Positions 10,949 to 30,672 of a stretch of 43,242 nucleotides of DNA are shown one piece after another. Below the pieces are notes generated by a model. The model did no database searches. It was given only the letters and a program-made list of their open reading frames with translations, and was not told where the DNA came from. Source of the DNA: Prolixibacteraceae bacterium (GTDB lineage Bacteria; Bacteroidota; Bacteroidia; Bacteroidales; Prolixibacteraceae); the NCBI GenBank assembly GCA_018648265.1, contig JABGRN010000044.1, forward strand, positions 1 to 43,242, in the 5' to 3' direction. A program made the translations under genes and the position numbers. Each line of letters opens with the position of its first letter. Position 1 is the stretch's first letter.

Positions 10949-11695
10949 TTAAGCTAAAATCAAATCGACCCCCGCATTATTAAATTCGTTTTGAAAATGA
11001 ACATCAAGTTCATTGTTAGTAGCAATGTGTTGAATATCTGCTGTGTAGCAAATATTTGTAAGTTCGGTTTTACCAAACTTGCTTGAATCGGAAACAATAA
11101 AAACATCCTTTGCTTTTTGAATGATGTAACTTGAAATTTCCGCTCTGAAAAGATCGTACAATGTAAATCCAGAGTCAGTTTCATATCCGTCAATTCCAAT
11201 AAAAGCTTTATCAATATTTATTTGCTCAATGCAGGTTTTGGTAATTTTTCCCACCAGAGTTTCACTGTCGTGTTGATAAATACCACCCAGAATAATAATA
11301 TTGGCTTGTTCGTTTTTTCTGAATTGCCGGGCGATGTAAACATTTGTGGTAATGATTGTAACCTTTTTAATTTTTAAAAGTTCCCGTGCCAGAAGTACAT
11401 TTACCGAGCCTGACTCGATAAGAATTGTTTCCCCTTCATTTACAAAAGTTGCCACCTTTTTGGCAATCCTGAGTTTTTTTTCATAATTCACACCCAGCCT
11501 GTTGGTCAAATCATCCGCATCTTTTAGCACGGCGCCGCCATGAACACGTTTCAAAAGACCCTCAGTTGCTAAAAAATTCAAATCCTGCCTGATGGTAACC
11601 GATGAAACATTTAGTTTTTCAGTGAGCTCAATTACAGAAGTCTGATCGTTTTTTTCTAAAATTTCCAGAATTTTATTTTGTCGATTATTTATCAT
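10949..11695 (-). CDS. DeoR-family repressor of the glycyl radical cluster
   Basis: 248 residues, the normal DeoR length. The N-terminal HTH has the family signature: NRQNKILEILEKNDQTSV, then LTEKLNVSSVTIRQDLNFL and GLLKRVHGGAV at about residues 45-56. The C-terminal DeoRC domain (about 75-230) contains the IDKAFIGIDGYE and KFGKTEL sites typical of sugar-phosphate sensing members. It is the last gene of the four-gene unit; its ATG overlaps the ROK stop by one base (TAATG), so translation is probably coupled. It likely represses the promoter in front of the activase gene. Confidence 0.88.
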   Translation of the reverse strand: MINNRQNKILEILEKNDQTSVIELTEKLNVSSVTIRQDLNFLATEGLLKRVHGGAVLKDADDLTNRLGVNYEKKLRIAKKVATFVNEGETILIESGSVNVLLARELLKIKKVTIITTNVYIARQFRKNEQANIIILGGIYQHDSETLVGKITKTCIEQINIDKAFIGIDGYETDSGFTLYDLFRAEISSYIIQKAKDVFIVSDSSKFGKTELTNICYTADIQHIATNNELDVHFQNEFNNAGVDLILA

Positions 11696-12657
11696 TATTC
11701 CAATGTTAAAGCGGCAGCTCCAATAACTCCGGCATCGGCACCAATATTTGAGATTACTATTTCAATGGGATCGAAAATCATATCGCGGGCTAATTCGTAA
11801 AAAGTCGATTTTATTTTATCAAGATAAAAATCTCCCCAGTTCGTAAGTCCACCACCCAAAACAATAAGTGGCGGATTTAAAGTTTGAAAAATATTATAAA
11901 TTCCTAATCCTACATAATACCCGCTGTCTAAAATAATTTCTTTGGAAACCGGATCATCTATTTCAAGGCCTTTTTTCAAATGTTGACCACTTAATTTCGA
12001 CAGGTTAAAATTTGATGGAAGATTAAGTTTGCTTTTTTTACCTTCCTTTATTTTTTGTTCAAAAAGGTAGGGAAGTGCCATTCCACAGGCACATGCCATC
12101 AAACAGCCACGGTTTCCACAAGTACATGTCAGCTCGCTGTTTGGTTCTACAATTGTGTGGCCAAATTCACCGGCGGTTCCTGTAACACCTCTGTACAGTT
12201 TTTTATTAATGATAATTCCGGCACCAATTCCTGTGCTAATAGTGAGAAAAACCATGTCGTTAAAACCTTTTCCGGCACCAAATTTAAATTCACCAAAAGC
12301 CTGAGCATTGGCATCATTATCCAAAACTACAGGTATTTTGAAATAGGATTGGACAGCATCGCGAAGGGGATAATTTTTAAAACCTTTCAGGTTGGAAGTT
12401 GTAATAATTGTACCATCGCGAAAACGGATATGACCGGCACAACCCATTCCGATTCCCAAAAGGTCTGATTCCTGAAAATCGTTTCTTTTGATTATTTCTT
12501 TTATGTTTTCGGCTACAAGTTTAACCAGGTCTTCTTCGTTTCTGTCAACATGCGCACAAGTATGGATTTTGTCAATTATTTGTCCTTCAACATTAACCAG
12601 AACAATGGAACATTTGGTACCACCAATATCGACTCCGCAAAGTAATTTTTTCATCAT
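11695..12657 (-). CDS. ROK-family sugar kinase
   Basis: 320 residues. ATP-binding DIGGTK at 10-15, catalytic Asp115 in DNDAN, the glycine-rich STGIGAGI at 141-148 and AGEFGH at 162-167. The ROK zinc site is His167 plus Cys178, Cys180 and Cys185 (CTCGNRGC); the position normally holding Glu two residues after the last Cys is Met. Known members phosphorylate glucose, ManNAc, fructose, allose or related sugars at O6. Its start codon directly follows the stop of the glycyl radical enzyme (no gap), so it probably makes the phosphorylated substrate for that enzyme or handles its product. It may also carry a non-glucose specificity, which cannot be read from sequence. Confidence 0.87.
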   Translation of the reverse strand: MMKKLLCGVDIGGTKCSIVLVNVEGQIIDKIHTCAHVDRNEEDLVKLVAENIKEIIKRNDFQESDLLGIGMGCAGHIRFRDGTIITTSNLKGFKNYPLRDAVQSYFKIPVVLDNDANAQAFGEFKFGAGKGFNDMVFLTISTGIGAGIIINKKLYRGVTGTAGEFGHTIVEPNSELTCTCGNRGCLMACACGMALPYLFEQKIKEGKKSKLNLPSNFNLSKLSGQHLKKGLEIDDPVSKEIILDSGYYVGLGIYNIFQTLNPPLIVLGGGLTNWGDFYLDKIKSTFYELARDMIFDPIEIVISNIGADAGVIGAAALTLE

Positions 12658-15078
12658 TTAAAAATTTAGTGAATGCTCGGTTCTTGCAATAATATCATCT
12701 TGAGTATCGGGTGATAAGGTAGTGAAAAAAGCAGAATATCCGGCCACCCTTACAATCAGATCTCTGTGATTTTCGGGATTCTTTTTGGCGGCTAGCAATG
12801 TTTCCTTTGAAACAATGTTGTACTGAACATGCGAGCCTTTCAAATCTTTGAAAAAAGTTCTGACTATCGAAATCAATTTTTGTTTATCAGAATCTTTTTG
12901 AATGGTAGCAGGAGATAATTTTTGATTCAGGAGTACGCCGCCCATAATCTTATCTGTGGGCAACTTCGATACAGATTTAAAAACAGCAGTCGGGCCCAAC
13001 GTATCCGTTCCCGACGATGGTGAACTTCCTTCAGCAACCGGGGTAAATGCTTTTCTTCCATCAGGTGTTGCCGGAACAACAGCCCCGCTGGGAACGTTAG
13101 CCGAAATACTGGAGGTTCCAGCATAATATTTGCATCCGATGGGTCCGCGGTTATTTCGTGTAGTATGATAATTTTCAAGTTCGTCGATAAATTCCATGTA
13201 GGCATCTTTTAAAAGGAGATCCACATAATCATCATCATTTCCATATTTAGGTGCAAAATTCAATAACAATTGTCTGATTTTTTCACCTTCTTTTCCTTCA
13301 AAGTTGTTTTCAATAACTTCAATGAGCTGTTCTTTCGTTATTCTTTTTTCTTCGAAAATCAGTTTTTTAATGGCGGCCATTGAATTCCCTAAATTCGCAA
13401 TTCCTACCTGAAGACCTGAAATAAAATCGTATTTCGATCCGCCCTCCTTTATGGTTTTTCCCCGCGGAATACAACTATCAACAAAAGCAGAGCAAAGTAT
13501 ATCCGGAACATTTTCTTCGAGGGCAGTATCAACTGCGGTATCTATTTCTACCGTTTTTTGTGTGTAATATTTTATCTGGTGTTGCCACGAATTAAAAACT
13601 TCATCAAAAGAATCGAATTCAGTAAAATTTCCAATACCTTCCTGAAATACTATCCCCGACTGTTTGTCGAGTCCGTTGTACAACGAAGCCAGAAAAACCC
13701 GCATCAGGTTCAGAAAACTCATACCAGTACAACGATAACCCCATTTCCCGGGTACAGCAATTTCGATACATCCAATGGCTGAAAAATTATAAGCATCTTC
13801 CGGCTCAACACCAAGTTTAATAAGTTCCGGAATCACAATTTCATCGTTATTAAAAGAGGGCATCCCAAATCCTTTTTCTATAATCCGCATGCACTTTATC
13901 ATAAATTTATTGTTTATATTTTTATGAAATCTTACAGACAGATTTGGTTGAGTGAGTTTCATTTTTCCCACCGAATCGAGAATAAGATAACTTAAATCAT
14001 TTACTGCATCCTGCCTATCTGTTGTTTGTCCGCCAATAGTAACGTTCTGGTAAAGTGGGCCTCCCGCTGAAAAACGAGTGTGCGACCAGGGACGGATTTT
14101 ATTTATGGAAAGCAATTTTATCCATGTATTTTCCAATAACTCTGAAACAAAATCATCAGAAATATTTCCTGTAGTTTTATCTTTCTGATAAAAGGGGAAT
14201 AGATACTGATCCATTCTTCCCAACGATACTGAATGGCCGTTACTTTCAATTTGAAGTACAAGCTGCACAAAATAAACAAGCTGCAAAGCCTGATAAAAAT
14301 TTTGAGGCGGTTTTTCTGCAATTACTTCACAATTGTTGGCGATTAAAAGGAGTTCCTGTTCTCGTAACTTGTTCTGTTCTTTTTTGCTGATTGAGAGAGC
14401 CAAATCTTTGTATCTTCGGATAAAAGTCTGAAATGCTTTAATGGAAATTGTTAGAGCCGTATAAAAATGATTTTTTTTTATTCCGTCCTTTTCGAATCTT
14501 TTTACTTGTTTATGATACTGATTGATTTCTTCAAAATAACCACTCAATCCGACTGATAATATTTTATAAAAATCAACTGCAATATGTGCATCTCCCGACG
14601 TGAGGTTGCCGGTAGCTTTAATAATTGCTGAATCTTGTAAATCGCGCAATTCTTGTGACATTAAAGCTCTGCCACGATCCCATAAAACTTTTCCTTTCCA
14701 CCATTTTGCAATTTCAACCAGCTCCTCTTTATATTCTTCTGTAATAAAAAAAGCATCTCCCGGCCGTTTATCCAGTTCATTCATTTCCAGGGGCAACCAA
14801 TCAACGGCATATTCCGGAAAAATGGGAGCTGCCCTATTTTGCGACGACTGATTGCCAACAATTAATTCTCCTTCGTCGATGAAAATGGTCATCTCTTTCA
14901 GAGTCTTTTCAAGTGCAAGTGCCCGTTTTATAATTATTGGTTTATCCTCATTTCCCCGATATATTTCAGTATAAAACTTTGCCCTTTCGGTGCAAACCGA
15001 TGGTTTTGAGTTCAATACCTTTTCTCGTAAAAATGCTATTCTTTCAGTTATTTTTGACTGCTTTTTTTCAATTATCAT
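12658..15078 (-). CDS. Glycyl radical enzyme, PflD/YbiW-like group
   Basis: 806 residues. Active-site Cys437 lies in SAIGCIE (433-439) followed by VPGKWGYRCTG, and the glycyl radical is Gly780 in VRVAGYSAFF. GCxE rather than the double Cys of pyruvate formate-lyase marks a dehydratase/lyase-type member. Overall it resembles the E. coli PflD/YbiW group more than glycerol dehydratase, choline lyase or HypD; this is from memory of motifs. I recall a report assigning 1,5-anhydroglucitol 6-phosphate ring opening to YbiW-type enzymes, unverified here; the adjacent ROK kinase fits a sugar-phosphate substrate. The start at 15078 was chosen because GGAGG lies five bases upstream; a TTG at 15090 is less likely. 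Oxygen-sensitive, cytoplasmic. Confidence 0.88.
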   Translation of the reverse strand: MIIEKKQSKITERIAFLREKVLNSKPSVCTERAKFYTEIYRGNEDKPIIIKRALALEKTLKEMTIFIDEGELIVGNQSSQNRAAPIFPEYAVDWLPLEMNELDKRPGDAFFITEEYKEELVEIAKWWKGKVLWDRGRALMSQELRDLQDSAIIKATGNLTSGDAHIAVDFYKILSVGLSGYFEEINQYHKQVKRFEKDGIKKNHFYTALTISIKAFQTFIRRYKDLALSISKKEQNKLREQELLLIANNCEVIAEKPPQNFYQALQLVYFVQLVLQIESNGHSVSLGRMDQYLFPFYQKDKTTGNISDDFVSELLENTWIKLLSINKIRPWSHTRFSAGGPLYQNVTIGGQTTDRQDAVNDLSYLILDSVGKMKLTQPNLSVRFHKNINNKFMIKCMRIIEKGFGMPSFNNDEIVIPELIKLGVEPEDAYNFSAIGCIEIAVPGKWGYRCTGMSFLNLMRVFLASLYNGLDKQSGIVFQEGIGNFTEFDSFDEVFNSWQHQIKYYTQKTVEIDTAVDTALEENVPDILCSAFVDSCIPRGKTIKEGGSKYDFISGLQVGIANLGNSMAAIKKLIFEEKRITKEQLIEVIENNFEGKEGEKIRQLLLNFAPKYGNDDDYVDLLLKDAYMEFIDELENYHTTRNNRGPIGCKYYAGTSSISANVPSGAVVPATPDGRKAFTPVAEGSSPSSGTDTLGPTAVFKSVSKLPTDKIMGGVLLNQKLSPATIQKDSDKQKLISIVRTFFKDLKGSHVQYNIVSKETLLAAKKNPENHRDLIVRVAGYSAFFTTLSPDTQDDIIARTEHSLNF

Positions 15079-15079
15079 C

Positions 15080-15967
15080 TTAACCTCCAATCTTTGTTTC
15101 GAATCCTTTTAATTGTGCGTATTGAATATATTTGGTGATTTCTAAATCCTCAACTTGTTCTTGGTTCCCGAAAATGTAATCCATACCCAACATTTTGTAT
15201 TTTTCAACTCCGAAAGTATGGTAAGGTAGAAAATGAATCTCATTGACATTTTTTAGTGAATAGACAAAATCAATTATTTGTTTCATTTCATTTTCAGAAT
15301 GATTAAAACTAGGGATTACCGGAATGCGAACAATTACATGTGAACCGGAATCTGTAAGTTTTTTAAGATTTTTCATAACCAGTTCCGCTTCGCCATGGGT
15401 AAAAGTTTTGAACTTATTTTTATCGGTATGTTTTAAATCTACCAGAAAAGTTTCTATGAATCCAATACTTCTTTCCACTTTTTCCCAGTTCACATGAAGT
15501 GTTGTTTCAATGTTTACTTTTATGTTTCTTACTTCGAGTTCTTTCAACAATTCAATTATATTTTCTTCCTGTGAAAGTGGCTCCCCACCAGAAAGTGTTA
15601 CACCTCCATCATTCCGGTAAAAAAGAGTGTCTTTTTCTATTTCTGCTAAAAGTTCATGAACGCTTTTAGATTCTCCCGATACCGTTAATGCTTTTGATGC
15701 GCAAATATTTCTGAGATTTTCCGGATTTTGCAAAAGTTCCCGATTTATCTGAATTCCATTATTGTTTATTCTGATTATAGCTTTATTTACTTTAGTACAA
15801 TCTCCAAAGTTTTTGCAATTTTTTTTGTCGTATATAACGCTATAATTGAAAGACTGACTTTCAGGGTTACTGCACCATTGGCAACGAAGCGGACAACCTT
15901 TATAAAAAATCAGGGTTCTAATGCCCTTGCCATCGTGTGTAGAATATCGTTGAATATTAAAAATCAT
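15080..15967 (-). CDS. Glycyl radical enzyme activase (radical SAM)
   Basis: 295 residues. The radical SAM cluster motif is Cys25-x3-Cys29-x2-Cys32 (GCPLRCQWC), with SAM-binding GGEP at 127-130. An insertion between the motif and the barrel (residues about 45-100) is where related activases hold two extra 4Fe-4S clusters with about eight Cys; here only Cys51, Cys57 and Cys89 remain, although the surrounding frame (KALTVSGE) is still recognisable. It installs the radical on Gly780 of the enzyme encoded next, whose ATG is one base after this stop. It is the first gene of the unit and follows a predicted promoter. Confidence 0.9.
   Translation of the reverse strand: MIFNIQRYSTHDGKGIRTLIFYKGCPLRCQWCSNPESQSFNYSVIYDKKNCKNFGDCTKVNKAIIRINNNGIQINRELLQNPENLRNICASKALTVSGESKSVHELLAEIEKDTLFYRNDGGVTLSGGEPLSQEENIIELLKELEVRNIKVNIETTLHVNWEKVERSIGFIETFLVDLKHTDKNKFKTFTHGEAELVMKNLKKLTDSGSHVIVRIPVIPSFNHSENEMKQIIDFVYSLKNVNEIHFLPYHTFGVEKYKMLGMDYIFGNQEQVEDLEITKYIQYAQLKGFETKIGG
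15084..15088 (-). promoter_or_regulatory. Shine-Dalgarno GGAGG of the glycyl radical enzyme
   Basis: Minus strand GGAGG, spacer TTAAG, ATG at 15078. A full Shine-Dalgarno sequence is uncommon in Bacteroidota. It sits inside the last two codons of the activase gene, and the stop codon lies in the spacer, so terminating ribosomes can restart. It decides the start of the enzyme. Confidence 0.7.
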
Positions 15968-15997: not shown

Positions 15998-16028
15998 TAA
16001 ATTTAACGAGTTTTCATATGAAAGCAAA
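15998..16028 (-). promoter_or_regulatory. Promoter and dyad of the glycyl radical operon
   Basis: Minus strand TTTG (16028-16025), 19 bases, TAAATTTA (16005-15998): seven of eight bases of the -7 consensus. The spacer holds the perfect 12-bp palindrome TTTCATATGAAA (16012-16023). Its position between the promoter elements suits a repressor, most simply the DeoR protein at the end of the operon; this is inferred. Confidence 0.55.
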
Positions 16029-16129
16029 ACAGCCTTCGTTTAAAATCAATATAAATGCTGAATAACACTTTTTATACATAAAATCATAAATAGTAATTGT
16101 TTTTGCGCACTATTCTATTCTTCATAGAG

Positions 16130-17486: not shown

Positions 17487-17533
17487 AGTGAAAAGCACTC
17501 TAAGAATAATTGCGTTTCAAAAAAATCATACTC

Positions 17534-19816
17534 ATGAAAAGAATTCATAAATTATTGGTTTCGGTTTTATTGGTCTGTTTAATTTTGCCTGCAGCCGGAC
17601 AAAGACAAACCATTTCGTTAATCAAAGATTGGAATTTTAAAGGTTCTTCAATTTGGGAGGAATCGATTAACAAAAAGGTGAATTTGCCACACACATGGAA
17701 TTCACATGATGCAGCTCAGGGTTATAAGTATTACCAAGGCAAAGGCATTTATACTAAAAATTATTTTGTTGACAATTCTCTTTTTAACAAAAGATTATTC
17801 TTAAAGTTTGAAGGTGCTCAAACTGTGGCAGATGTTTCGATAAACGGAAAATACATTGGGCAACATCGAGGTGGATATTCTGCATTTGTATTTGAAATTA
17901 CTAATGCTGTTAATTTTGATGAAGAAAATATTTTAGAGGTAAAAGTTGATAATTCTGAAACGGAAGATGTTTTGCCTCTTGGCGGTGATTTTAATATTTA
18001 TGGAGGTATTTATCGCCCGGTTGAATTACTAATTACCGAAAAAGCATGTATCACTCCACTTGATTTTGCTTCTCCGGGAATGTTCCTTGTTCAAAAAAAT
18101 GTTTCGAAAGAAAGTGCTGAAATTGAAGTGATAAGCAAAATTTCAAATGGCAAATCCAACAATGAAAATTTTGAGATTGAAGCAACAATTAAAGATGCCA
18201 GCGGAAATATTGTTCAATCGGGTGTTTCATCTCTTTTAGTAAATGCTTTTGAAACAAAACAAACGGTAATTCCAATCAATATTCAAAATCCACATCTTTG
18301 GAATGGAATTGAAAATCCGTATTTATATTCTGTAGTAGTACAACTTAAAGAAGATGGTAAAGTTCTCGATGAAGTAACTCAGCCACTTGGAATAAGATAC
18401 TACAGCACTGACGCTGAAAAAGGATTTTATTTGAATGGCGAGCATGTAAAAATAAAAGGAGTAAGCCGTCATAACGATTTTGCTGGCGTGGCTTCTGCAT
18501 TAAAAAGCAAACATCATAGGATTGACATGGAGCTTATTAAAGAAATGGGTGCCAATGGAATTAGATTAGCTCATTACCAACATTCAGATTTTTTTTATTC
18601 CCTGGCTGACACAAGTGGAATGATTGTTTGGGCCGAGATTCCTTTTGTTGGAAGCGATCAACAAGGGTTTCACGATTCCGAAGAATTTCAGAAGAATGCA
18701 AAACAGCAATTACAGGAATTAATAAGACAAAACTACAATCACCCTTCAATATTGTTTTGGGGCTTGTACAACGAGATTGGAATGAAATACGATTCCACGT
18801 TAACAAGTATTATTACCGACCTTCACCAGTTGGCAATTGAAGAAGACCCAAGCCGCCCAACTGTTGCAGCAACGTTTGTTACAAGAAGTGCTGACCCGCT
18901 TCATAAAATTCCTGAAATGATTGCCTGGAATCAATACTATGGATGGTACTATAGTAAACCAGATAAATTAGGAGATTTTCTTGACAGAATCCATAAAGAA
19001 GAACCTGCATATAAAATTGGAGTTTCGGAATATGGTGCGGGTGGCAGTACCAATCAGCACGAAGAGAAAATTAGAAGACCCTTTCCCTTTTTCCATGAAT
19101 GGCATCCCGAAGAATTTCAGGCAACAGTTCACGAAGGCAACTGGAAAGCCATAAACGATCGCCCTTTTGTTTGGGGAAGTTTTGTGTGGAATATGTTTGA
19201 TTTTGGTTCGCATTTCAGGCGCGAAGGCGATGCTATTGGAATTAATGACAAGGGAATGGTAAGCTACGATCGCAAAAGGAAAAAGGATGTCTTCTATTTT
19301 TACAAGGCAAATTGGAGTGAAGAACCTGTAATTCGAATATGCAACTCACGGTTTGCTATTCGCGAGAAAGATAAAATAAAAGTTAAAATTTATTCAAATC
19401 TCGAAAATGTTGAATTATTTGTAAATGGCAAATCTGCTGGCACACAAACCGGAGAAAATGCCACACTTGTTTGGGAAAATATTTCGTTGTTAAAAGGAAA
19501 TAACAGAGTTAAAGCTGTCGGTCAAAAAAATGAAAAAACTTATTCTCATTCTGTAGTTTGGATGTACGAAAAAAGTGCGGCCATTTCTTTTGCAATAACC
19601 TTTTTACGCTGGCTAATAAAACCATTTATTGTTTTATTGCTGGCTTCTACAATGTGGTTTATCTGGCTTCTATTTAAAAAGCGTGTTAAAAACTGGAGAA
19701 AAATATCTGTTATCTTTTTATTGGTGTTAATGGTTTTAATATTAGTTGCAATAGCAGTCGCCCAAATTTTTGGTGCTCGTTTCGGGATTAATCTTTTCGA
19801 GTATAGTTTAATTTGA
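17534..19816 (+). CDS. GH2-family glycosidase with two C-terminal membrane helices
   Basis: 760 residues. Signal peptide to PAAGQ (about residue 22). The GH2 order is complete: sugar-binding jelly roll (about 25-170), immunoglobulin-like domain (180-290), TIM barrel (295-590). Acid/base Glu414 in YNEIG, nucleophile Glu499 in VSEYGAGG. A further beta domain (about 605-675) is followed by two strong hydrophobic segments (about 685-714 and 723-747) separated by a basic loop (KKRVKNWRK). Most GH2 enzymes have no such tail, so this one is probably membrane-held. Likely a beta-galactosidase or beta-glucosidase type; specificity unknown. The ATG at 17534 opens into the signal peptide; a TTG at 17510 is unlikely. 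The GH3 gene follows after 36 bases. Confidence 0.87.
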   Translation: MKRIHKLLVSVLLVCLILPAAGQRQTISLIKDWNFKGSSIWEESINKKVNLPHTWNSHDAAQGYKYYQGKGIYTKNYFVDNSLFNKRLFLKFEGAQTVADVSINGKYIGQHRGGYSAFVFEITNAVNFDEENILEVKVDNSETEDVLPLGGDFNIYGGIYRPVELLITEKACITPLDFASPGMFLVQKNVSKESAEIEVISKISNGKSNNENFEIEATIKDASGNIVQSGVSSLLVNAFETKQTVIPINIQNPHLWNGIENPYLYSVVVQLKEDGKVLDEVTQPLGIRYYSTDAEKGFYLNGEHVKIKGVSRHNDFAGVASALKSKHHRIDMELIKEMGANGIRLAHYQHSDFFYSLADTSGMIVWAEIPFVGSDQQGFHDSEEFQKNAKQQLQELIRQNYNHPSILFWGLYNEIGMKYDSTLTSIITDLHQLAIEEDPSRPTVAATFVTRSADPLHKIPEMIAWNQYYGWYYSKPDKLGDFLDRIHKEEPAYKIGVSEYGAGGSTNQHEEKIRRPFPFFHEWHPEEFQATVHEGNWKAINDRPFVWGSFVWNMFDFGSHFRREGDAIGINDKGMVSYDRKRKKDVFYFYKANWSEEPVIRICNSRFAIREKDKIKVKIYSNLENVELFVNGKSAGTQTGENATLVWENISLLKGNNRVKAVGQKNEKTYSHSVVWMYEKSAAISFAITFLRWLIKPFIVLLLASTMWFIWLLFKKRVKNWRKISVIFLLVLMVLILVAIAVAQIFGARFGINLFEYSLI

Positions 19817-19852
19817 AAATTCATTTTTTTTAAACCTATAAATCTGATTGAA

Positions 19853-21880
19853 ATGAAAAACATTCTAAAACTTTTAAAAATAGTCCCCATTGTAATTTTT
19901 GTTTTAACTATTAGTTCGTGCACCCAAAAACAAAAATACGAACAAGCCGTTCTAGGTGTTCGTTCGGCAGAAATCTTAAATATTGATGATTATCAGTTTA
20001 AAGATTTGAATAAAAATGGTGAGCTTGATAATTATGAAGATTGGCGTTTGTCGATTGACGAGCGGGTTGGCAATTTGTTGTCGCAAATGACGCTGGAAGA
20101 AAAAGTTGGATTTATGCTTATTAGTACCATTAACATGGGTGGCAGTTCAATGACGGGTATTCCCGGAGGAAGGGGAGGCAAAATTACCAGTGACCTTTCA
20201 GAAGAGGAGACAATTATGAAGCTGAATTTTTTTACTCGCAAACCACTTCCAGCTCACGCAATGTTTGTTTCAGGAACAACAAAAGGAATTAACGAAAGAC
20301 ATTTACGGCACTTTATTTTGCGTGCCAATACCGAAGCAAAAACAATAGCAGAATGGTCGAATAAAGTGCAGGCACTCGCCGAAAATACCCGATTGGGAAT
20401 TCCGGTAATTTTGGCTTCTAATCCGCGCAACCATGTTAGTATCGACAATTCCACAGGCCTTGGTTTGGGTGAAACAGTCTTTTCAAAATGGCCTGGTGAA
20501 TTGGGTTTGGCTGCCATGCGAGATTTTGAACTTACCCGCGAATTTGCCGAAACCGCCGCAAAAGAGTGGGTTTCTGTTGGAATTCGAAAAGGTTATCAAT
20601 ACATGGCTGATTTGGCGACAGAACCACGATGGGGAAGAACAGAAGGTACTTTTGGTGAAAATGCAGAATTGGCTGCCAACATGATTAGGGAAATTACTCT
20701 TGGATTTCAAGGGGAAAAACTTGGAAATCATTCGGTGGCTTTAACCACAAAACATTTTCCAGGTGGCGGCCCTCAAGTTGACGGACAAGACCCACATTTC
20801 GATTGGGGGAAAGACCAGCATTATCCGGGAGACATGTTTGATTACCACTTAAAACCATTTGTTGCTGCTATTGAAGCAGGAACTTCAGCGATTATGCCAT
20901 ACTATGCCAAGCCAATAAATTCAGAACACGAAGAAATTGCTTTTGCCTATAATAAGGGAATAATTAACGACTTACTTCGTGGAGAACTTGGGTTTCAGGG
21001 AATAATAAATTCCGATACCGGTCCAATTTACATGATGCCGTGGGGAGCGGAAGATCTCTCTATTCATGAACGTTATCAAAAAGCACTGGAAGCCGGAGTT
21101 GATATTTTTTCCGGAATTGCCGACCCAACTAAACTTTTAGAAACGGTTAAAATGGGATTGGTTGCTGATACAAGAATCGATGAATCAGTTACCCGGCTTC
21201 TGAAAGAAAAATTTGAATTGGGCATTTTTGAAAATCCTTATGTGAATGTAGTAGAAGCTGAATCTATTGTTGGTAACGAACAATTCCAGGAAAGTGCAAA
21301 TCTGGCTTTTCGGAAGTCAATCGTTTTATTGAAAAATGAGCATAAAGTTCTTCCTCTAAAATCCAAAACAAAAGTATATTTTGAAAAATATATGGTTGCA
21401 AGAGGTTCTGTGGATCATCATAATATAGTAGCACCCGAAGAAAATAGCTGGGATGTGGAATTCGTAAATTCAGCTGATGAGGCAGATGTAAATATTCTTT
21501 GGCTTATACCCAAGACTGGCGGTCTTTTTGGTTCAACCGGTGCTGAATTAAATATTGAATTATCGAACAACAACATTGACGTAGAATATGTCAATAAAAT
21601 TAAAGCAGAAAAGCCAACAGTGATTGTCATTAATTTCAGTAATCCGTGGGTAATTAGCGAAATTGATACCGGCAATGCGAATACAATTCTGGCAACTTTT
21701 GGTACTACCACCGATGCTTTGTTAGATGTTTTAACAGGGAAATTTAATCCAACCGGCAAAATGCCATTTTCTATTCCGAGTTCAACCCAATTTGTTTTAA
21801 GTAATAAATCTGATGTTCCGGGATATTTGGAGTCAGAAGGTTATGCCCTTTTCAAATTTGATGATGGTATAAGTTATTAA
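19853..21880 (+). CDS. GH3 beta-glucosidase lipoprotein
   Basis: 675 residues with lipobox Cys23 (ISSC). An acidic DLNKNGELDNYEDW loop at 51-64 resembles a calcium-binding EF-hand and is common in Bacteroidota GH3 enzymes. The TIM barrel carries KHFPGGG at 300-306 and the nucleophile Asp388 in INSDTG (the more usual sequence is SDW). The alpha/beta sandwich domain spans about 480-640. The FnIII domain found in longer GH3 enzymes is missing. Close relatives by architecture include the Bacteroides sophorose-acting GH3 that sits beside a GH144 gene; that pairing recurs here 1.5 kb downstream, so beta-1,2-linked glucose is a reasonable, unproven substrate. Confidence 0.85.
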   Translation: MKNILKLLKIVPIVIFVLTISSCTQKQKYEQAVLGVRSAEILNIDDYQFKDLNKNGELDNYEDWRLSIDERVGNLLSQMTLEEKVGFMLISTINMGGSSMTGIPGGRGGKITSDLSEEETIMKLNFFTRKPLPAHAMFVSGTTKGINERHLRHFILRANTEAKTIAEWSNKVQALAENTRLGIPVILASNPRNHVSIDNSTGLGLGETVFSKWPGELGLAAMRDFELTREFAETAAKEWVSVGIRKGYQYMADLATEPRWGRTEGTFGENAELAANMIREITLGFQGEKLGNHSVALTTKHFPGGGPQVDGQDPHFDWGKDQHYPGDMFDYHLKPFVAAIEAGTSAIMPYYAKPINSEHEEIAFAYNKGIINDLLRGELGFQGIINSDTGPIYMMPWGAEDLSIHERYQKALEAGVDIFSGIADPTKLLETVKMGLVADTRIDESVTRLLKEKFELGIFENPYVNVVEAESIVGNEQFQESANLAFRKSIVLLKNEHKVLPLKSKTKVYFEKYMVARGSVDHHNIVAPEENSWDVEFVNSADEADVNILWLIPKTGGLFGSTGAELNIELSNNNIDVEYVNKIKAEKPTVIVINFSNPWVISEIDTGNANTILATFGTTTDALLDVLTGKFNPTGKMPFSIPSSTQFVLSNKSDVPGYLESEGYALFKFDDGISY

Positions 21881-21956
21881 ATAAATGGGTTGATTTGTTA
21901 AATGAAAATTTGGCCGATTGTGATTCCCTGGTAAACCCGAAGAAATTTTGCTTAGT

Positions 21957-21978
21957 ATTTGATTCGAAAAAATCAAAT
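21957..21978 (+). terminator. Hairpin after the GH3 gene
   Basis: A perfect 8-bp stem ATTTGATT/AATCAAAT with loop CGAAAA. There is no T-run after it and the stem is AT-rich, so it may be a weak terminator or an RNA-stability hairpin between the GH3 and nitrilase genes. Confidence 0.4.
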
Positions 21979-22024
21979 CCGTGAATAATTAATTTTCTTA
22001 ATTTTAAAGGATTAAATATAAGTC

Positions 22025-22927
22025 ATGAAATCTATTCCGTACTATCTTTTAATTTTTACTCTAATGGTTAATCTCACTGGCTATTCTCAAGAAAAAAGCA
22101 AGCTCAAACTAGCCATGGCTCAAATGTTGGTTGAAGGTGGCGAAAAACAAAAAAATCTAAATCGGGCTGTTGAAAGAATTGAAGAGGCAGCAAAAAACAA
22201 AGCTGACATTATTTTGCTTCCGGAAGCAATGGATTTGGGATGGACACATTCAAAAGCTAAAACCGAAGCCGAACCGATTCCGTTAGGATCTACATTTCAA
22301 ACTCTTGCGAAAGCTGCAAAAATGAATAAAATTTATGTTTGTGCAGGAATAATTGAAAAAGATGGTGACCGTACTTTTAATTCAGCGGTATTAATAAACC
22401 GAAATGGAGAACTCGTTTTAAAACATCGTAAAATTAATGAGTTAAGTATTGCCCACGGTTTGTATGATCAGGGTGACAGAATAAATGTTTGCGAAACTGA
22501 ATTTGGCACAATCGGACTTTTAATTTGTGCAGATGCCAATGCAAAAGATCATGTTTTAACCCGGTCGCTGGGGTATTTGGGTGCCGACTTAATTTTATTG
22601 CCTAGCAGTTGGGCAGTAAAAGCGGATCACGATAATAAAACAGATCCTTATGGAAGCACCTGGACTAAAGCTTTTAACCCGGTTTGTAAAGAGTTCAAAT
22701 TAAATATAGCATCGGTAAGTAATGTGGGTAAAATTGTGGACGGCCCCTGGAAGGATTGGAATTGCATTGGAAACTCAATTTTTGTTGAAAATGGAGGCGA
22801 AGAAATGACGGTTTTACCGTACGGATTAAATGCCGACACAATAGTTTATCAGGATGTTACACTACTTCAGCGCCCCGAGAGAGGAACTTCGTGGAATAAA
22901 TATTGGAATTCTTTACGAAACAAATAG
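22025..22927 (+). CDS. Secreted carbon-nitrogen (nitrilase-superfamily) hydrolase
   Basis: 300 residues. Signal peptide to GYSQ (about residue 22), which is unusual for this mostly cytoplasmic superfamily. The catalytic triad is visible: Glu67 in LLPEAMD, Lys136 in KHRKINEL and Cys168 in LLICADA. The superfamily hydrolyses amides, carbamoyl compounds or nitriles. The ICADA context rather than ICYD points away from NitFhit types. A periplasmic amidase acting on an amidated sugar or amino compound is possible. It follows the GH3 gene by 144 bases with a hairpin between. Confidence 0.83.
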   Translation: MKSIPYYLLIFTLMVNLTGYSQEKSKLKLAMAQMLVEGGEKQKNLNRAVERIEEAAKNKADIILLPEAMDLGWTHSKAKTEAEPIPLGSTFQTLAKAAKMNKIYVCAGIIEKDGDRTFNSAVLINRNGELVLKHRKINELSIAHGLYDQGDRINVCETEFGTIGLLICADANAKDHVLTRSLGYLGADLILLPSSWAVKADHDNKTDPYGSTWTKAFNPVCKEFKLNIASVSNVGKIVDGPWKDWNCIGNSIFVENGGEEMTVLPYGLNADTIVYQDVTLLQRPERGTSWNKYWNSLRNK

Positions 22928-22985
22928 TGTCGCTCTTCAAGGTGAAAATTAATTCAATCCGCAGTTTTAAATATTGTAGATTTAT

Positions 22986-23170
22986 TTAGATTGTGGATAT
23001 GGTAGTTACCAAACTGCCATCGTGTTCAAGGTTTATTTTTTTATGCAGGCGATAACGGTGATTTTCAACTCTGCGTGCCGAAATTCCCAATAGAGGGGCA
23101 ATTTCTTTTGAAGTAAGATTCATTCTAAGATAGGCGCACAAACGTAAATCGCGATGAAAAAATTGAACAA
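22986..23170 (-). pseudogene. C-terminal HTH remnant of a LuxR-type regulator
   Basis: Reading the minus strand from about 23170 to the TAA at 22986 gives DLRLCAYLRMNLTSKEIA, then PLLGISARRVENHRYRLHKK. This is the GerE/LuxR helix-turn-helix seen at the end of Bacteroidota Y_Y_Y-propeller regulators. Upstream, stop codons appear at once (TAG then TAA before GGF), and no sensor part exists in the window. A 46-residue peptide from the internal Met is possible but unlikely to be a gene. It marks a second rearrangement border, just before the GH144 module. Confidence 0.82.
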
Positions 23171-23313
23171 ATCCCCCCTAATTTTATAAAACAATAATGT
23201 GAATATGTGGCTTAAAATTAGGTCTTTAATAACTAATAATAAATGAGTTAGTTTTAAGTAAAATGGAAATACTAATAATTTAAAACTTCCAGTTTCCTTC
23301 TTTTTAAAATTAT

Positions 23314-23321
23314 TAAATTTG
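23314..23321 (+). promoter_or_regulatory. -7 element before the first GH144 gene
   Basis: TAAATTTG, perfect -7. The best -33 candidate is TTTC 17 bases upstream. Predicted start near 23328, 23 bases before the ATG. Confidence 0.45.
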
Positions 23322-23350
23322 CACTCTGAAATACAAGAAATAACGTCTTT

Positions 23351-24721
23351 ATGAATCAAAAAACATATAACTTAATAATTACAATTTTTCTTTTTGGGCT
23401 GGGTTTTACAGCGTGTAACCACTCCAACAAGAAACAATTACCTATCTCTGAAAATGAAGAAAAGATTTTAACCGACTCGCTACTTGATTTGGTTCAGTAC
23501 CAGACGTTTCAGTACTTCTGGGATGGAGCTGAGCCTACGTCAGGAATGGCGCGTGAACGAATTCATTTAGACAACTCTTATCCGCAAAACGACCAGAATG
23601 TAATTACACTCGGTGGATCGGGTTTTGGTGTAATGGCCATTTTAGTTGGTATTGAACGTAGATTTATAACCCGCGAACAAGCCTTAAAAAGGTATCAGAA
23701 AATTGTTGATTACCTGGGGAAAGCCGACCGTTTTCATGGAGTTTGGCCACACTGGTTAAATGGGGAAACCGGGAAGGTCAGGCCGTTTAGTAATAAAGAC
23801 GATGGTGGCGATTTGGTGGAAACAGCTTTTATGATTCACGGGCTGTTAACAGTTGCCGAATACTATCGAAGTGGAAATGAAGAAGAACAACAATTGGTAA
23901 AAGACATTACCAAACTATGGGAAGAAGTAGAATGGGATTGGCACACCAAATGTGGCGAAGATGTTTTATACTGGCACTGGTCGCCAAATTTTGGTTGGGA
24001 AATGAATTTCCCTGTGGGCGGCTACAACGAGTGTTTGATAATGTACGTTTTGGCGGCATCGTCACCAACCCATCCAATTAATCCAAGTGTATATCATAAA
24101 GGTTGGGCACTTAACGGAGCAATCGCAAACGATACCGTTTACTACGGATTAAACACTATTCTCAATTTTTATGAACACGACGAAGACCCTATTGGCTCAC
24201 TTTTCTGGGCGCACTATTCTTATTTAGGATTAAATCCTAAAGGGTTAACAGATAAATATGCCGACTATTGGGAGTTGAATAAAAACCATGCAACAATTCA
24301 TTACAAATATTCTTTAGATAACCCAAAAGGTTACAAAGGTTACGGCGAAAAGCAATGGGGATTTACCTCAAGCTATTCAATGAATGGTTATGCAGGACAT
24401 CGTCCCGGTGAACGTGATTTGGGTGTAATTTCACCAACGGCAGCCCTTTCTTCATTTCCATACACTCCAACAGAATCCATGCAGTTTTTAAAGTATTTGT
24501 ACACCGAAGCCGATTCTTTAGTTGGTAAATATGGCCCGTACGATGCTTACAATCAAACAACTGGTTGGTATTTACCACGGTATCTGGCCATCGATCAGGG
24601 ACCAATTCCGGTTATGATTGAAAACCATCGAACAGGGTTAATATGGAATCTTTTTATGAAAAATGAAGATGTGCAGGTTGGTTTGAAAAAATTGGGATTT
24701 TCGTATTCACAGGTAAAATAG
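23351..24721 (+). CDS. GH144-type (glycoamylase-fold) glucanase lipoprotein
   Basis: 456 residues with lipobox Cys22 (GFTAC). The rest is a single (alpha/alpha)6 domain of the glycoamylase-like family: TFQYFWDGAEP at the start, GGDLVETAF, YWHWSPNFGW, GGYNECLIMY, SSPTHPI, SPTAALSSFPYTP, GKYGPYDAYN and AIDQGPIPVMIENHRTGLIW at the end. GH144 members of Bacteroidota cleave beta-1,2-glucan either internally or as sophorose from an end. The same set of motifs recurs in the second protein of this module. It is likely anchored on the outer membrane and acts on oligosaccharides. A MITE-like element follows. Confidence 0.85.
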   Translation: MNQKTYNLIITIFLFGLGFTACNHSNKKQLPISENEEKILTDSLLDLVQYQTFQYFWDGAEPTSGMARERIHLDNSYPQNDQNVITLGGSGFGVMAILVGIERRFITREQALKRYQKIVDYLGKADRFHGVWPHWLNGETGKVRPFSNKDDGGDLVETAFMIHGLLTVAEYYRSGNEEEQQLVKDITKLWEEVEWDWHTKCGEDVLYWHWSPNFGWEMNFPVGGYNECLIMYVLAASSPTHPINPSVYHKGWALNGAIANDTVYYGLNTILNFYEHDEDPIGSLFWAHYSYLGLNPKGLTDKYADYWELNKNHATIHYKYSLDNPKGYKGYGEKQWGFTSSYSMNGYAGHRPGERDLGVISPTAALSSFPYTPTESMQFLKYLYTEADSLVGKYGPYDAYNQTTGWYLPRYLAIDQGPIPVMIENHRTGLIWNLFMKNEDVQVGLKKLGFSYSQVK

Positions 24722-24750
24722 AATATTTACTTTATTTTTGATTCAAATTA

Positions 24751-24893
24751 TGAGTCTGCTCCGAAAAGTCCGAGTTCATTATTTTTCAGCTCTTTTACCC
24801 CTAACCCCTAAAGGGGAACTCGCTGAAAATCAATGAACTCTTCAAAGTCCCCTTAGGGGGTTTAGGGGTAATACACTTTTCGGAGTGGACTCA
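24751..24893. mobile_element. MITE-like element with nested and interlocked inverted repeats
   Basis: 143 bases with 19-base ends TGAGTCTGCTCCGAAAAGT (24751-24769) and ACTTTTCGGAGTGGACTCA (24875-24893), matching at 17 of 19. Inside are two more pairs in the order C-D-C'-D': C GAGTTCATTATTTTTCAGC (24772-24790) with C' (24822-24840), and D around ACCCCTAACCCC (24793-24819) with D' around GGGGTTTAGGGG (24846-24872). C/C' and D/D' interlock, so they cannot pair together except as a pseudoknot. No coding capacity; no clear target duplication. It separates the GH144 and DUF1080 genes. Confidence 0.75.
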
Positions 24894-24920
24894 GTTATTA
24901 AATCAATAAAATTTACCAAT

Positions 24921-25676
24921 ATGAAAAATTTGAAATCTTTAATTACAAGTGTTTTTATAATTTTTATTTCTTCAAGTGCTGGTTTCTCGCAGGCAAAATG
25001 CATTTTTCAAGAAGAAGGTTTTACACAACTGTTTAATGGCAAAAACCTGGCTGGCTGGAAAGCACCAGATGGTGACAACGGACACTGGAGTGTAATTAAC
25101 GGAGTAATAGATTACGATGCCCGTTCTGAAGCTGAAGGAGATAAAAACCTCTGGTCGGAAAAAGAATACAATGATTTTACATTACACGTAGAATGGCGCT
25201 TTAAAGGATATGGCGACCACCTTTTTAAACTGCCCACAATTCTTCCAAGTGGCGAATATTTGCGCGATGAGGAAGGTAAAATAATTGAGCCACTTGGACC
25301 AAATTCCGATTCCGGCATTCTTTTAAAAGGAGCTGGTCAGACCAATCTTTGGTGTTGGTCGGTTGGTTCTGGCGAATTATGGTCTGTTCGGAATAATAAA
25401 GATTTACCGGCCGAAACGCGCGCAGCTGCAGTACCCAGTTCAAACCAGGATAATCCGGTTGGTTTTTGGAATGCCTTTGATATTACCGTTAAAGGAGAGT
25501 TCATTACAATAAAAAATAATGGGATTGTTGTAATTAATAATGCTTTTTATCCCGGATTAAATATTGAAGGGCCAATCGGTTTTCAACATCATGGTGGAAT
25601 AGATGCAAAAACAGGGAAATTAAAAGGTGCGTCAAGTTTGGTTCAGTTTCGGAATGTTTGGATAAAAGAACTTTAG
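24921..25676 (+). CDS. DUF1080 (3-keto-disaccharide hydrolase-type) secreted protein
   Basis: 251 residues from the ATG at 24921; an in-frame GTG at 24885 lies inside the mobile element's end and is rejected. Signal peptide to AGFSQ. One DUF1080/PF06439 jelly-roll domain: FTQLFNGKNLAGWKAP, NGVIDYDA, SDSGILLKG, GPIGFQHHG and FRNVWIKEL at the end. Known members hydrolyse 3-keto-glucosides or act as 3-keto-glycoside lyases after a Gfo/Idh-type oxidation. Placed between two GH144 genes, it may process 3-keto derivatives of beta-1,2-glucan fragments; this is inferred from the neighbours. Twelve bases separate it from the next gene. Confidence 0.88.
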   Translation: MKNLKSLITSVFIIFISSSAGFSQAKCIFQEEGFTQLFNGKNLAGWKAPDGDNGHWSVINGVIDYDARSEAEGDKNLWSEKEYNDFTLHVEWRFKGYGDHLFKLPTILPSGEYLRDEEGKIIEPLGPNSDSGILLKGAGQTNLWCWSVGSGELWSVRNNKDLPAETRAAAVPSSNQDNPVGFWNAFDITVKGEFITIKNNGIVVINNAFYPGLNIEGPIGFQHHGGIDAKTGKLKGASSLVQFRNVWIKEL

Positions 25677-25688
25677 ACAGTAAATTGA

Positions 25689-28082
25689 ATGAAATTTGAA
25701 AGGTACTTTGCAGTTTTTATAATCTTATTTGTTATTATTTCGACAACAACCTATGCGCAGGAAGTATATTTTTTTGACGAGGGTACCGACAACAATTTTT
25801 ACGATCAGGGAATTGTTGAAGTAAACAATTTAGGACAAAGTACATTCGAACACACTTATCCTCCGGGAGGTTCACCATCACAATGGAACGATAAAGTACC
25901 CTGTTCAACAAACGCTTTTAAAGGTGCGAATTCTCTAAAATTTTCTTATAAATCGTCTGTCAACGGAAACTGGAAAGTACGAATTCATCGAAAAGGTTGG
26001 GAATCTGCAAGTGTTGTCGGATTAGATTCATTGTCTTTTTATGTTTATTCTGAAACAGGTTTACCCAAATCGGCGCTGCCACTAATCGGTCTAAATTGCG
26101 AAGGAGGAACCTCAGATTTGTATGCTTTATCCAACTTTAACAATGATATTCCGGCAGGTCAATGGACTCATGTAATTTTCCCTCTCGATTCTATTTTTCA
26201 AAACAATGCAGGACTGGATTATTCGCAGGCAAAGGCAGTAATTTTTAACCAATCGGAACACGACAACAGTTCGAGGCTAATTTTAATTGATGAAATAACT
26301 GCATTTAAAAGTGTAGATGTTGTTCCTCCAGTTGCCAATTTTTCAGCAAAAGGATACGATAGCCACGCAGAATTAAACTGGACTCAACCAACTTTTGGTT
26401 TACTTTATCGCATTTACGCCTCGTTTAATAATGGGCAAACTTTTGAATTACGTAAAGAAACCCCGGAAAACTTCTATTTGGATTTTGTTCCTGAAAACTG
26501 TAAAAATACAAGTGTAATTTATAAGATTGTTTCTGTTATTCAGAACAAAGAATCGGAGGCCAATGAAAGGATAGCTGAAATTCGCGACTTTTCCGACGAA
26601 GAATTATTGGATTTAGTGCAGGAATATTCATTCCGCTATTTTTGGGAAGGTGCGCATCAAAACACTGGCATGGCACTCGAACGCTCAAACGGGAGTGGAA
26701 GGACGGCTGCTTCTGGGGCAACCGGGTTTGGATTAATGGCAATGATTGTTGCTCACGAACGGGAATACCGGCCACGTGAAGATGTAAAAGACCGGATACT
26801 TATGATTTTGGAATTTCTGGAAACATGCGATCGCCATCACGGTGCCTGGTCGCATTGGTACAATGCTGATACAAAAAAAACGCAAGCTTTTTCGCCAGGC
26901 GACGATGGTGGCGATTTAGTAGAAACATCGTTTGTTGCACAAGCCTTAATTGCCTTAAAACATTATTTTTCAGGTGGCGATTCTAAGTCGATTCAAATTC
27001 GCGAAAAGGCGGATCAACTTTGGGAAGAAATAGATTGGGATTGGTACCGGAATTTTGGAGAAAATGTGCTTTACTGGCATTGGTCGCCAAATACCAATTT
27101 CGATAAAAACATGAAAGTTGGTGGCTGGAACGAAGCATTGATAACATACATTATGGCAGCTTCTTCTCCAACACACGGTATTCCAAAAGAAGTTTACACC
27201 AATGGATGGGCAAAAAATGGAAATATTGTTAGTCCTAATCGAAGTTATTATGGATACGAAATAAACCTGGCATGTAACTGGGGCGGCCCTCTTTTTTGGA
27301 TACATTACACACATCATGGAATTAATCCACACGGTTTAAAAGATGAATATGCCGACTATTGGCAGGAACATGTAAATACGGCAAAAATTCATTATGAATA
27401 TGCAAAAGATAATCCGCTGAATTTTGAAAATTATAGCGAAAAATGCTGGGGATTAACAGCCAGCGACGATCCAGATGGTTACTCTGCCCACAAACCCATG
27501 GACAACGATAATGGCACAGTTAGCCCGACCGCTGCCCTGGCAAGTATGCCTTATACTCCGGATGAATCGATAAAAGCACTGAAATATTTTTACCAAGAAC
27601 GTGGAAGCGAATTGTTCGGGAAATACGGACCTTATGACGCATTCAACGACAGTCGTGATTGGGTGCAGGAGGCATATATTGGAATCGATCAGGGACCAAT
27701 TGTGATTATGATTGAAAACCACAGAACCGGCCTTTTGTGGAAGAATGTAATGGAGGATACCGATGTGCAAGCAGGGCTTGACAAGCTTGGATTTCAGTAT
27801 GAAGTGGATGTTGTTTCGGGGGTAATAGAAACGCAAAAAAAAGGGGAACTTTTGGTATATCCCAATCCGGCAAAAAACCAAATTAATGTGTCGCTGCCCG
27901 GTATCCATTTTCCGGCGCAAATTAATGTTTATGGTATCGACGGACAAAAACACAGTAACTATTTTATTCAGCAAAAAGAGACAAATTTAACATTAAATTG
28001 TTCGACCCTAAAAAGCGGAATGTATATTTTAAGAGTGTCGGATTCATCTCAAATGTGGAGTAAAAAATTCGCAAAAAAATGA
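25689..28082 (+). CDS. Multidomain GH144-type glucanase with T9SS sorting domain
   Basis: 797 residues. Signal peptide to TTYAQ (about 23). Residues about 24-210 are a carbohydrate-binding-like beta sandwich (WKVRIHRKGW, LDSLSFYVYSETG, ILIDEITAFK). About 215-300 is an FN3 domain. About 305-720 is the GH144 domain, closely parallel to the preceding GH144 protein (YSFRYFWEGAHQ, GGDLVETSF, YWHWSPN, SPTAALASMPYTP, IGIDQGPIVIMIENHRTGLL). The last 75 residues form a type IX sorting domain (LLVYPNPAKNQINV ... LKSGMYILRV). So it is secreted through T9SS to the surface, the likely first attack on polymer. Its stop overlaps the start of a truncated GH43-like frame. Confidence 0.87.
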   Translation: MKFERYFAVFIILFVIISTTTYAQEVYFFDEGTDNNFYDQGIVEVNNLGQSTFEHTYPPGGSPSQWNDKVPCSTNAFKGANSLKFSYKSSVNGNWKVRIHRKGWESASVVGLDSLSFYVYSETGLPKSALPLIGLNCEGGTSDLYALSNFNNDIPAGQWTHVIFPLDSIFQNNAGLDYSQAKAVIFNQSEHDNSSRLILIDEITAFKSVDVVPPVANFSAKGYDSHAELNWTQPTFGLLYRIYASFNNGQTFELRKETPENFYLDFVPENCKNTSVIYKIVSVIQNKESEANERIAEIRDFSDEELLDLVQEYSFRYFWEGAHQNTGMALERSNGSGRTAASGATGFGLMAMIVAHEREYRPREDVKDRILMILEFLETCDRHHGAWSHWYNADTKKTQAFSPGDDGGDLVETSFVAQALIALKHYFSGGDSKSIQIREKADQLWEEIDWDWYRNFGENVLYWHWSPNTNFDKNMKVGGWNEALITYIMAASSPTHGIPKEVYTNGWAKNGNIVSPNRSYYGYEINLACNWGGPLFWIHYTHHGINPHGLKDEYADYWQEHVNTAKIHYEYAKDNPLNFENYSEKCWGLTASDDPDGYSAHKPMDNDNGTVSPTAALASMPYTPDESIKALKYFYQERGSELFGKYGPYDAFNDSRDWVQEAYIGIDQGPIVIMIENHRTGLLWKNVMEDTDVQAGLDKLGFQYEVDVVSGVIETQKKGELLVYPNPAKNQINVSLPGIHFPAQINVYGIDGQKHSNYFIQQKETNLTLNCSTLKSGMYILRVSDSSQMWSKKFAKK

Positions 28083-28249
28083 AAATGGTACTTAGGTTTA
28101 GAATTTTGATTTTGTCCAGTTTATTACTGATGGGATTTTTTGCGAATGCGCAAATAGAGTATCAAAAAACTTATTGCAACCCCTTAAATATTGGTTACGG
28201 CCATACTCCAATTCCAAATTTTGCTGATGCTATTTTGAATTATTTCTGA
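28079..28249 (+). pseudogene. N-terminal remnant of a GH43-like glycosidase gene
   Basis: Starts at an ATG overlapping the previous stop (ATGA) and runs 56 codons: a signal peptide ending FFANAQ, then IEYQKTYCNPLNIGYGHTPI and PNFAD, then unrelated AILNYF and stop. CNPLNIGYG-TPIPNFA is how a group of Bacteroidota GH43-like enzymes begins, before a blade starting HRATADP, which is missing here. The reading frame ends exactly where that should follow. A translated 56-residue secreted peptide is possible but a truncated gene is more likely. Confidence 0.7.
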
Positions 28250-28294
28250 AGGGAAAACAATATTTTTTGATATGTTTAGAAGATACTTATAGGT

Positions 28295-29446: not shown

Positions 29447-29463
29447 GTATAGAAAAATGAATT

Positions 29464-30600: not shown

Positions 30601-30613
30601 TTCAATTTCATAT

Positions 30614-30644
30614 TTTAATTGGTTCCTTATTATTTGTAAGTTTG
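30614..30644 (+). promoter_or_regulatory. Promoter of the GH95 gene
   Basis: TTTA (30614-30617), 19 bases, TAAGTTTG (30637-30644). The -7 is perfect and the -33 has one mismatch. Predicted start near 30651, 22 bases before the ATG. Confidence 0.55.
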
Positions 30645-30672
30645 GGAAATAGAAAATCCTAAATCTTACAGA

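Follow-up and report, generated by a model that had tools for sequence, protein, structure and literature searches.

The DNA analysed here, referred to as the window, is a 43,242-nucleotide stretch of contig JABGRN010000044.1 from a Prolixibacteraceae bacterium (Bacteroidota). Four adjacent minus-strand genes in it encode, in this order, an activase, a glycyl radical enzyme (GRE), a ROK sugar kinase and a DeoR-family regulator; we refer to them as the cassette and propose for them a role in the use of an anhydro-sugar.

Gene content of the cassette and type of its radical enzyme

The activase, a radical SAM protein of 295 residues (15080-15967), matches Radical_SAM PF04055 with 48.4 bits and TIGR02494 with 317.1 bits (cut-off 174.35). 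It is 45.1% identical to Escherichia coli YbiY and 35.7% identical to PflC, and its gene adjoins that of the GRE (12658-15078). The GRE has 806 residues when read from the ATG at 15078, although translation could equally begin at a TTG at 15090. The kinase (11695-12657, 320 residues) is assigned to the ROK family (PF00480, 232.7 bits) and the regulator (10949-11695, 248 residues) to the DeoR family (DeoRC PF00455, 147.2 bits, plus PF08220). Provided that the GRE starts at the ATG, the genes are separated by a 1-base gap, a 0-base gap and a 1-base overlap, in agreement with the first-pass annotation of the window.

The GRE matches PF02901 (661.6 bits) and PF01228 (109.8 bits) and satisfies the general GRE subfamily model TIGR01774 of NCBIfam. 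The radical Gly780, the thiyl Cys437 and the GCxE motif (here GCIE) are all present, at the positions previously given for the two residues in the 806-residue numbering. Among structures in the PDB, E. coli YbiW (8id7/8yjn) reaches about 1000 bits and a close chain, 6xs4, 1011, followed at a distance by glycerol dehydratase (627), 9rco (556), diol dehydratase (546) and PflD (506). The GRE and YbiW are 57.2% identical (803 positions), the GRE and PflD only 37.7% (763 positions), which rules out a PflD-type enzyme. Stretches common to the GRE and YbiW but different in PflD are located near the thiyl Cys, near IESNGHS and in the C-terminal part; they include GCIE.AV.GKWGYRCTGMSF and AGTSSISANVP. 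All NCBIfam equivalog models considered (PflD, choline lyase CutC, hydroxyproline HypD, sulfopropanediol, arylacetate decarboxylases HPAD) score the GRE below their cut-offs. By full-length similarity the enzyme is nearest to YbiW among the GRE groups, and we classify it as YbiW-type. Clustering with a non-sugar group had earlier been named as evidence that would speak against a sugar phosphate substrate. The choline, hydroxyproline, isethionate and arylacetate enzymes all score far below YbiW, and the choline, hydroxyproline and arylacetate equivalogs stay under cut-off.

According to PMC12441222, YbiW and PflD split the 6-phosphates of 1,5-anhydroglucitol (1,5-AG) and 1,5-anhydromannitol to 1-deoxyfructose-6-phosphate, after phosphorylation by the phosphotransferase system (PTS). 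The link of PflD/YbiW-type enzymes to 1,5-anhydroglucitol-6-phosphate (AG6P), named in the first-pass annotation, is correct and can be narrowed to YbiW. The second GRE of the same genome (L018:7849-11372, G000:C133), with an adjoining activase, resembles hydroxyproline dehydratase (961.7 bits to 6vxc) and is therefore no partner of the cassette.

Conservation of the cassette and of a paired palindrome

The identical gene order was found in 24 distinct relatives besides the window (L012-L016, L021, L022, L024-L037, L058, L064 and L066, after removal of four duplicate pairs). A contig scan, which used patterns from one protein and reaches close relatives only, gave 17 loci in bacterial records titled Bacteroidales, Bacteroidetes, Bacteroidia or Bacteroidota, with one exception: L036, in a record titled Chlorobiota, is the same contig as L067, whose genome belongs to the order of the window's bacterium. 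The family search gave matches in 7 of 120 genomes, own included; one of these, L017, was dropped as PflD-like (38%). Kinase relatives (E <= 1e-80) were present in 7 of the 393 genomes of the order search, own included, and the other six all lie within the cassette. The distribution is patchy in both family and order. For 21 of the 25 known cassettes (window included; L036, L058, L064 and L066 omitted), the GREs are 55.5-59.7% identical to YbiW and 37.5-40.0% to PflD.

The ROK gene follows the GRE gene in 23 of the 24 relatives (the contig of L012 stops there; partial in L036), the DeoR gene is found in 22 (the contigs of L012 and L036 stop earlier; partial in L027), and the activase gene precedes the GRE gene in 22 (partial in L036; the contigs of L028 and L058 start after it). 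Every absent gene coincides with a contig end, and the GREs of L035 and L036 are broken across frames in the record. A lack of ROK and DeoR genes next to close homologues, named earlier as a counter-indication, is not seen: both genes accompany these homologues wherever the contig extends. Clustering of 326 frames from the 25 loci gave GRE in 25, ROK in 24, DeoR in 23 and the activase in 22, not counting its fragment in L036; the next commonest neighbour is present in four. Some related loci form groups with common neighbours, e.g. L021, L022, L025 and L031. A small gene encoding 123 residues, alike in L031 (12456-12827) and L036 (2907-3278), is wedged between GRE and ROK genes.

Among NCBIfam models, that of E. 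coli YciT scores highest on the regulator (NF040887, 224.3 bits; next model 157.9). As this is below the model's cut-off, we name the regulator YciT-like only. It is 41.0% identical to YciT (100/244), with 27/56 identical residues in the DNA-binding domain.

All 22 regions upstream of the activase gene that could be compared, one from the window and 21 from relatives, contain a pair of TTTYAWNYGAAA-like palindromes, spaced 22 bp apart in 20 regions and 21 bp in two; this stretch is missing from L028, L036 and L058. In the window the putative operator, overlooked in the first-pass annotation, occupies 16012-16045 on the minus strand: site 1 (TTTTAAACGAAG, 16034-16045) lies 22 bp from site 2 (TTTCATATGAAA, 16012-16023), which starts 56 bases ahead of the activase ATG. 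All 22 regions score at least 18.4 for the pair, compared with a mean of 0.15 and a maximum of two regions in 200 dinucleotide shuffles, a comparison that is generous because the weights were set by eye on the same regions. In 21 regions the sequence TAnnTTTG, which we take to be the Bacteroidetes -7 box, lies no more than 90 bases from the start, at variable distance and counted without a chance control.

In the own genome the paired pattern (<= 1 mismatch) has a single match, the cassette operator; the reversed control also gives one. Across 20 carrier genomes the same search gave 41 rows in 16 genomes, both strands counted. Of these, 21 lie at the cassettes of 15 genomes and include all 12 mismatch-free rows. 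The other 20 (eight of them in G131, the most of any genome) compare with four for the reversed control, so some further targets may be real; among five that were inspected, three lie within genes and two ahead of genes without an evident link. One such one-mismatch pair (L128:5443-5475, G131:C68) falls within a kinase-like gene; genes nearby resemble, by eye, those for a sugar transporter and a sugar-phosphate isomerase. The single exact site gave 25 rows versus 15 for the reversed control, at 23 loci: four cassettes, 16 within genes and three between genes. At one of the intergenic matches (L156), a neighbouring gene seems, judged by eye, to encode a sugar-binding protein. Neither the paired nor the single-site search found an aldolase among the targets.

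YciT is described in PMC8464067 as binding, by chromatin immunoprecipitation (ChIP-exo), upstream of the ybiUVWY operon, ybiV, fsaA and ybiO; deletion of yciT alters ybiV, ybiY and fsaA. The authors report 49 YciT sites in E. coli, characterize the motif as palindromic and propose a role in osmolarity (PMC8464067). Within 48 kb from four E. coli K-12 regions we found six occurrences of CTTTCNNNNGAAAG with at most one mismatch, a count that is no genome-wide test since three of the four regions were chosen for YciT. Two are exact, one in the ybiY-fsaA interval and one ahead of ybiO (L003:8547-8560, L134:3571-3584). One-mismatch copies lie upstream of ybiV and ybiU, and two more elsewhere (L003:505, L133:4880). 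No copy at this threshold was found in the 19-kb E. coli pflD region. Exact copies at reported targets allow CTTTCNNNNGAAAG to be proposed as the YciT operator. The Bacteroidota operator matches this palindrome, and the linkage of enzyme, regulator and operator thereby spans two phyla. The two systems differ in that the gene of the cassette regulator is part of its own predicted target operon while E. coli yciT lies elsewhere, and in the single paired match of the own genome as against the 49 sites reported for YciT.

The kinase pocket and the proposed pathway

The kinase has kept features that it shares with ROK glucokinases and N-acetylmannosamine kinase: DxGxT, an Asn-Asp pair, ExGH and three zinc cysteines. 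The last residue of its GCxE motif, however, is Met187, where ROK glucokinases have Glu. Met occupies this column in all 24 cassette kinases, the window's own and those of 23 relatives. In 34 control ROK proteins (six from the own genome and the 28 best-scoring among the matches listed for the family genomes) the residue is Glu in 32 and Asp in one, while the last shows a gap because the frame chosen for it does not cover the column. All 24 cassette kinases have Asn-Asp, ExGH and the zinc cysteines; DxGxT is present in the window's kinase and in those of the 20 cassette relatives viewed. The score for TIGR00744 (233.3 bits) is below the cut-off of 260.35.

In ROK kinases the Glu of GCxE may contact O1 and O2 of the sugar, a picture with which one published assignment (see below) is at odds. 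Its replacement by Met fits a sugar without an anomeric hydroxyl, as 1,5-AG would be. An alignment with E. coli glucokinase and its glucose places this Glu among five sugar-binding residues named for the GNE kinase (PMC2742894), and the ROK consensus is given as xCGxxGCx(E/D) (PMC5458393). Asp187 is among the residues involved in N-acetylglucosamine binding by NagK (PMC10031466) and would correspond to the column of Met187.

We propose that the cassette is probably a catabolic operon for the sugar alcohol 1,5-AG, PTS-free and ATP-dependent, and thus a variant of the known E. coli pathway. The ROK kinase would phosphorylate 1,5-AG at C6 at the expense of ATP. The activase would place the glycyl radical on Gly780 in the absence of oxygen, and the Cys437 thiyl radical would open the 1,5-anhydro ring of AG6P, giving 1-deoxyfructose-6-phosphate. 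The YciT-like regulator may sit on the two palindromes upstream of the activase gene and be released, probably by AG6P or by the product. This favours the earlier suggestion of a kinase acting on an anhydro-sugar, a radical enzyme opening it and a DeoR protein sensing a sugar phosphate.

The E. coli ybiY-ybiW/fsaA pathway shares with the cassette a YbiW-type GRE and activase in the same order, the ring opening of AG6P (predicted for the cassette) and YciT-type control with the same palindrome. Although the GRE belongs by sequence to the YbiW group, the pathway would depart from that of E. coli in its phosphorylation step, with a predicted ATP-dependent ROK kinase in place of the PTS, and in the missing fsaA-type aldolase. 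No match to PTS EIIC (PF02378) was found in the own genome, so that the PTS phosphorylation of an E. coli-like pathway has no counterpart there and a kinase is expected for making the 6-phosphate. An ATP-dependent 1,5-AG kinase associated with a GRE was not described in the open-licence literature searched, although the original YbiW paper may mention one.

The wider claim has three parts: a 1,5-AG 6-kinase, ATP-dependent, whose pocket is re-tuned by loss of the GCxE acid; a product route without fructose-6-phosphate aldolase; and an operator-regulator-YbiW linkage, conserved between E. coli and Bacteroidota, that would give YciT its natural role, the control of anhydroglucitol catabolism. We advance this combination tentatively, as possible but somewhat short of probable. 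The cassette suggests a route by which bacteria without a PTS may use 1,5-AG, and Met in the GCxE motif is offered as a one-residue marker for the proposed kinase specificity. If the proposal is true, the poorly understood YciT gains a physiological role that can be tested.

Met187 would equally fit any other hexose derivative without an anomeric hydroxyl, and the same gene architecture could serve 1,5-anhydromannitol or a further anhydro-hexitol, with the GRE opening that 6-phosphate. PflD carries out such a ring opening on anhydromannitol-6-phosphate (PMC12441222), and at L017 a PflD-like GRE adjoins a different ROK kinase. The E. coli pflD-pflC/fsaB-gldA anhydromannitol locus resembles the cassette in this radical opening of a 1,5-anhydrohexitol-6-phosphate; it differs in its GRE, in the PTS genes that adjoin it and in its lack of a YciT-type palindrome. 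With the window GRE far nearer to YbiW than to PflD, we regard a substrate other than 1,5-AG of this kind as unlikely. The L017 grouping itself (L017:6747-10917, G109:C349) comprises ROK, GRE and activase genes. Its GRE scores 614 bits to PflD and 745 against the PflD equivalog cut-off of 1109, and its ROK kinase has no zinc motif; a similar-looking ROK protein without zinc motif is found in G000:C43 (L044).

The acid is also lost in the Listeria protein 4htl, a beta-glucoside kinase by its PDB name, which has Asn172 at the Glu position (PMC5458393). The Glu can therefore also be missing from a kinase whose sugar would lack a free anomeric hydroxyl for another reason, and its loss is not unique to anhydro-sugars. 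Accordingly, the cassette kinase might act on C1-substituted sugars and the GRE on a glycoside-6-phosphate or another sugar phosphate; the missing aldolase, which leaves room for another product, would be compatible with this. Yet the kinase scores only 88 against the BglK cut-off of 550, and the YbiW-type stretches and the YciT-type operator link the cassette to the E. coli AG6P genes, which makes an action on glycosides improbable.

Several findings weigh against the 1,5-AG operon. E. coli Glu187 is assigned to O5 and O6 of glucose, not to O1, in PMC13133996. The regulator's score of 224.3 bits compares with a cut-off of 450 for the YciT model, and the window's own promoter is the sole one among the 22 regions without TAnnTTTG. 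No recurring transporter was found in or beside the cassette at the 25 loci. Finally, fructose-6-phosphate aldolase (TIGR00875) is above cut-off in none of 22 carrier genomes, so that the known next step is missing.

Downstream steps and neighbouring genes

The E. coli 1,5-AG pathway of Ma et al. reportedly continues with FsaA and GldA steps. In the own genome TIGR00875 gave only a partial match below cut-off. Among the 22 carriers nine have any match, and three of these (G118, G070 and G091) have a full-length match below cut-off. As a positive control, 10 of 14 known genomes gave a match, eight of them over cut-off. Many carriers are metagenome-assembled genomes, and the absences are therefore soft; nevertheless, none of the near-complete carriers G000 (100%), G117 (99%) and G047 (98%) has a full-length match. 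The doubt about the product raised in the first-pass annotation for want of an aldolase at the locus proves to be a real gap that extends to the whole genome, and hints at another enzyme acting on 1-deoxyfructose-6-phosphate.

The lack of an aldolase above cut-off and of a recurring transporter would also suit an operon that clears AG6P formed by accident rather than one that feeds on 1,5-AG. AG6P acts as a hexokinase inhibitor in human cells (PMC12441222), and its removal would relieve such a toxic block. As the cassette's own kinase, with its changed pocket, would add AG6P rather than remove it, we consider a clearing function very unlikely, and retain 1,5-AG catabolism as the preferred explanation.

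Two deoxyribose-phosphate aldolases (DeoC, PF01791) are encoded in the own genome, on contigs other than that of the cassette. The genome's only PF00923 match (L020, G000:C98:17885-18760) is a divergent transaldolase-like protein of 365 residues, below the NCBIfam cut-offs, whose gene sits among genes that look by eye like inositol catabolism genes (iolB-, iolD-like). The genes beside the cassette in the window, which do not recur next to other cassettes at the 25 loci, form a plus-strand run of polysaccharide genes (17510-33060) encoding GH2, GH3 and GH95 proteins, a 3-keto-disaccharide hydrolase and two PF10091 glucoamylase-like proteins.

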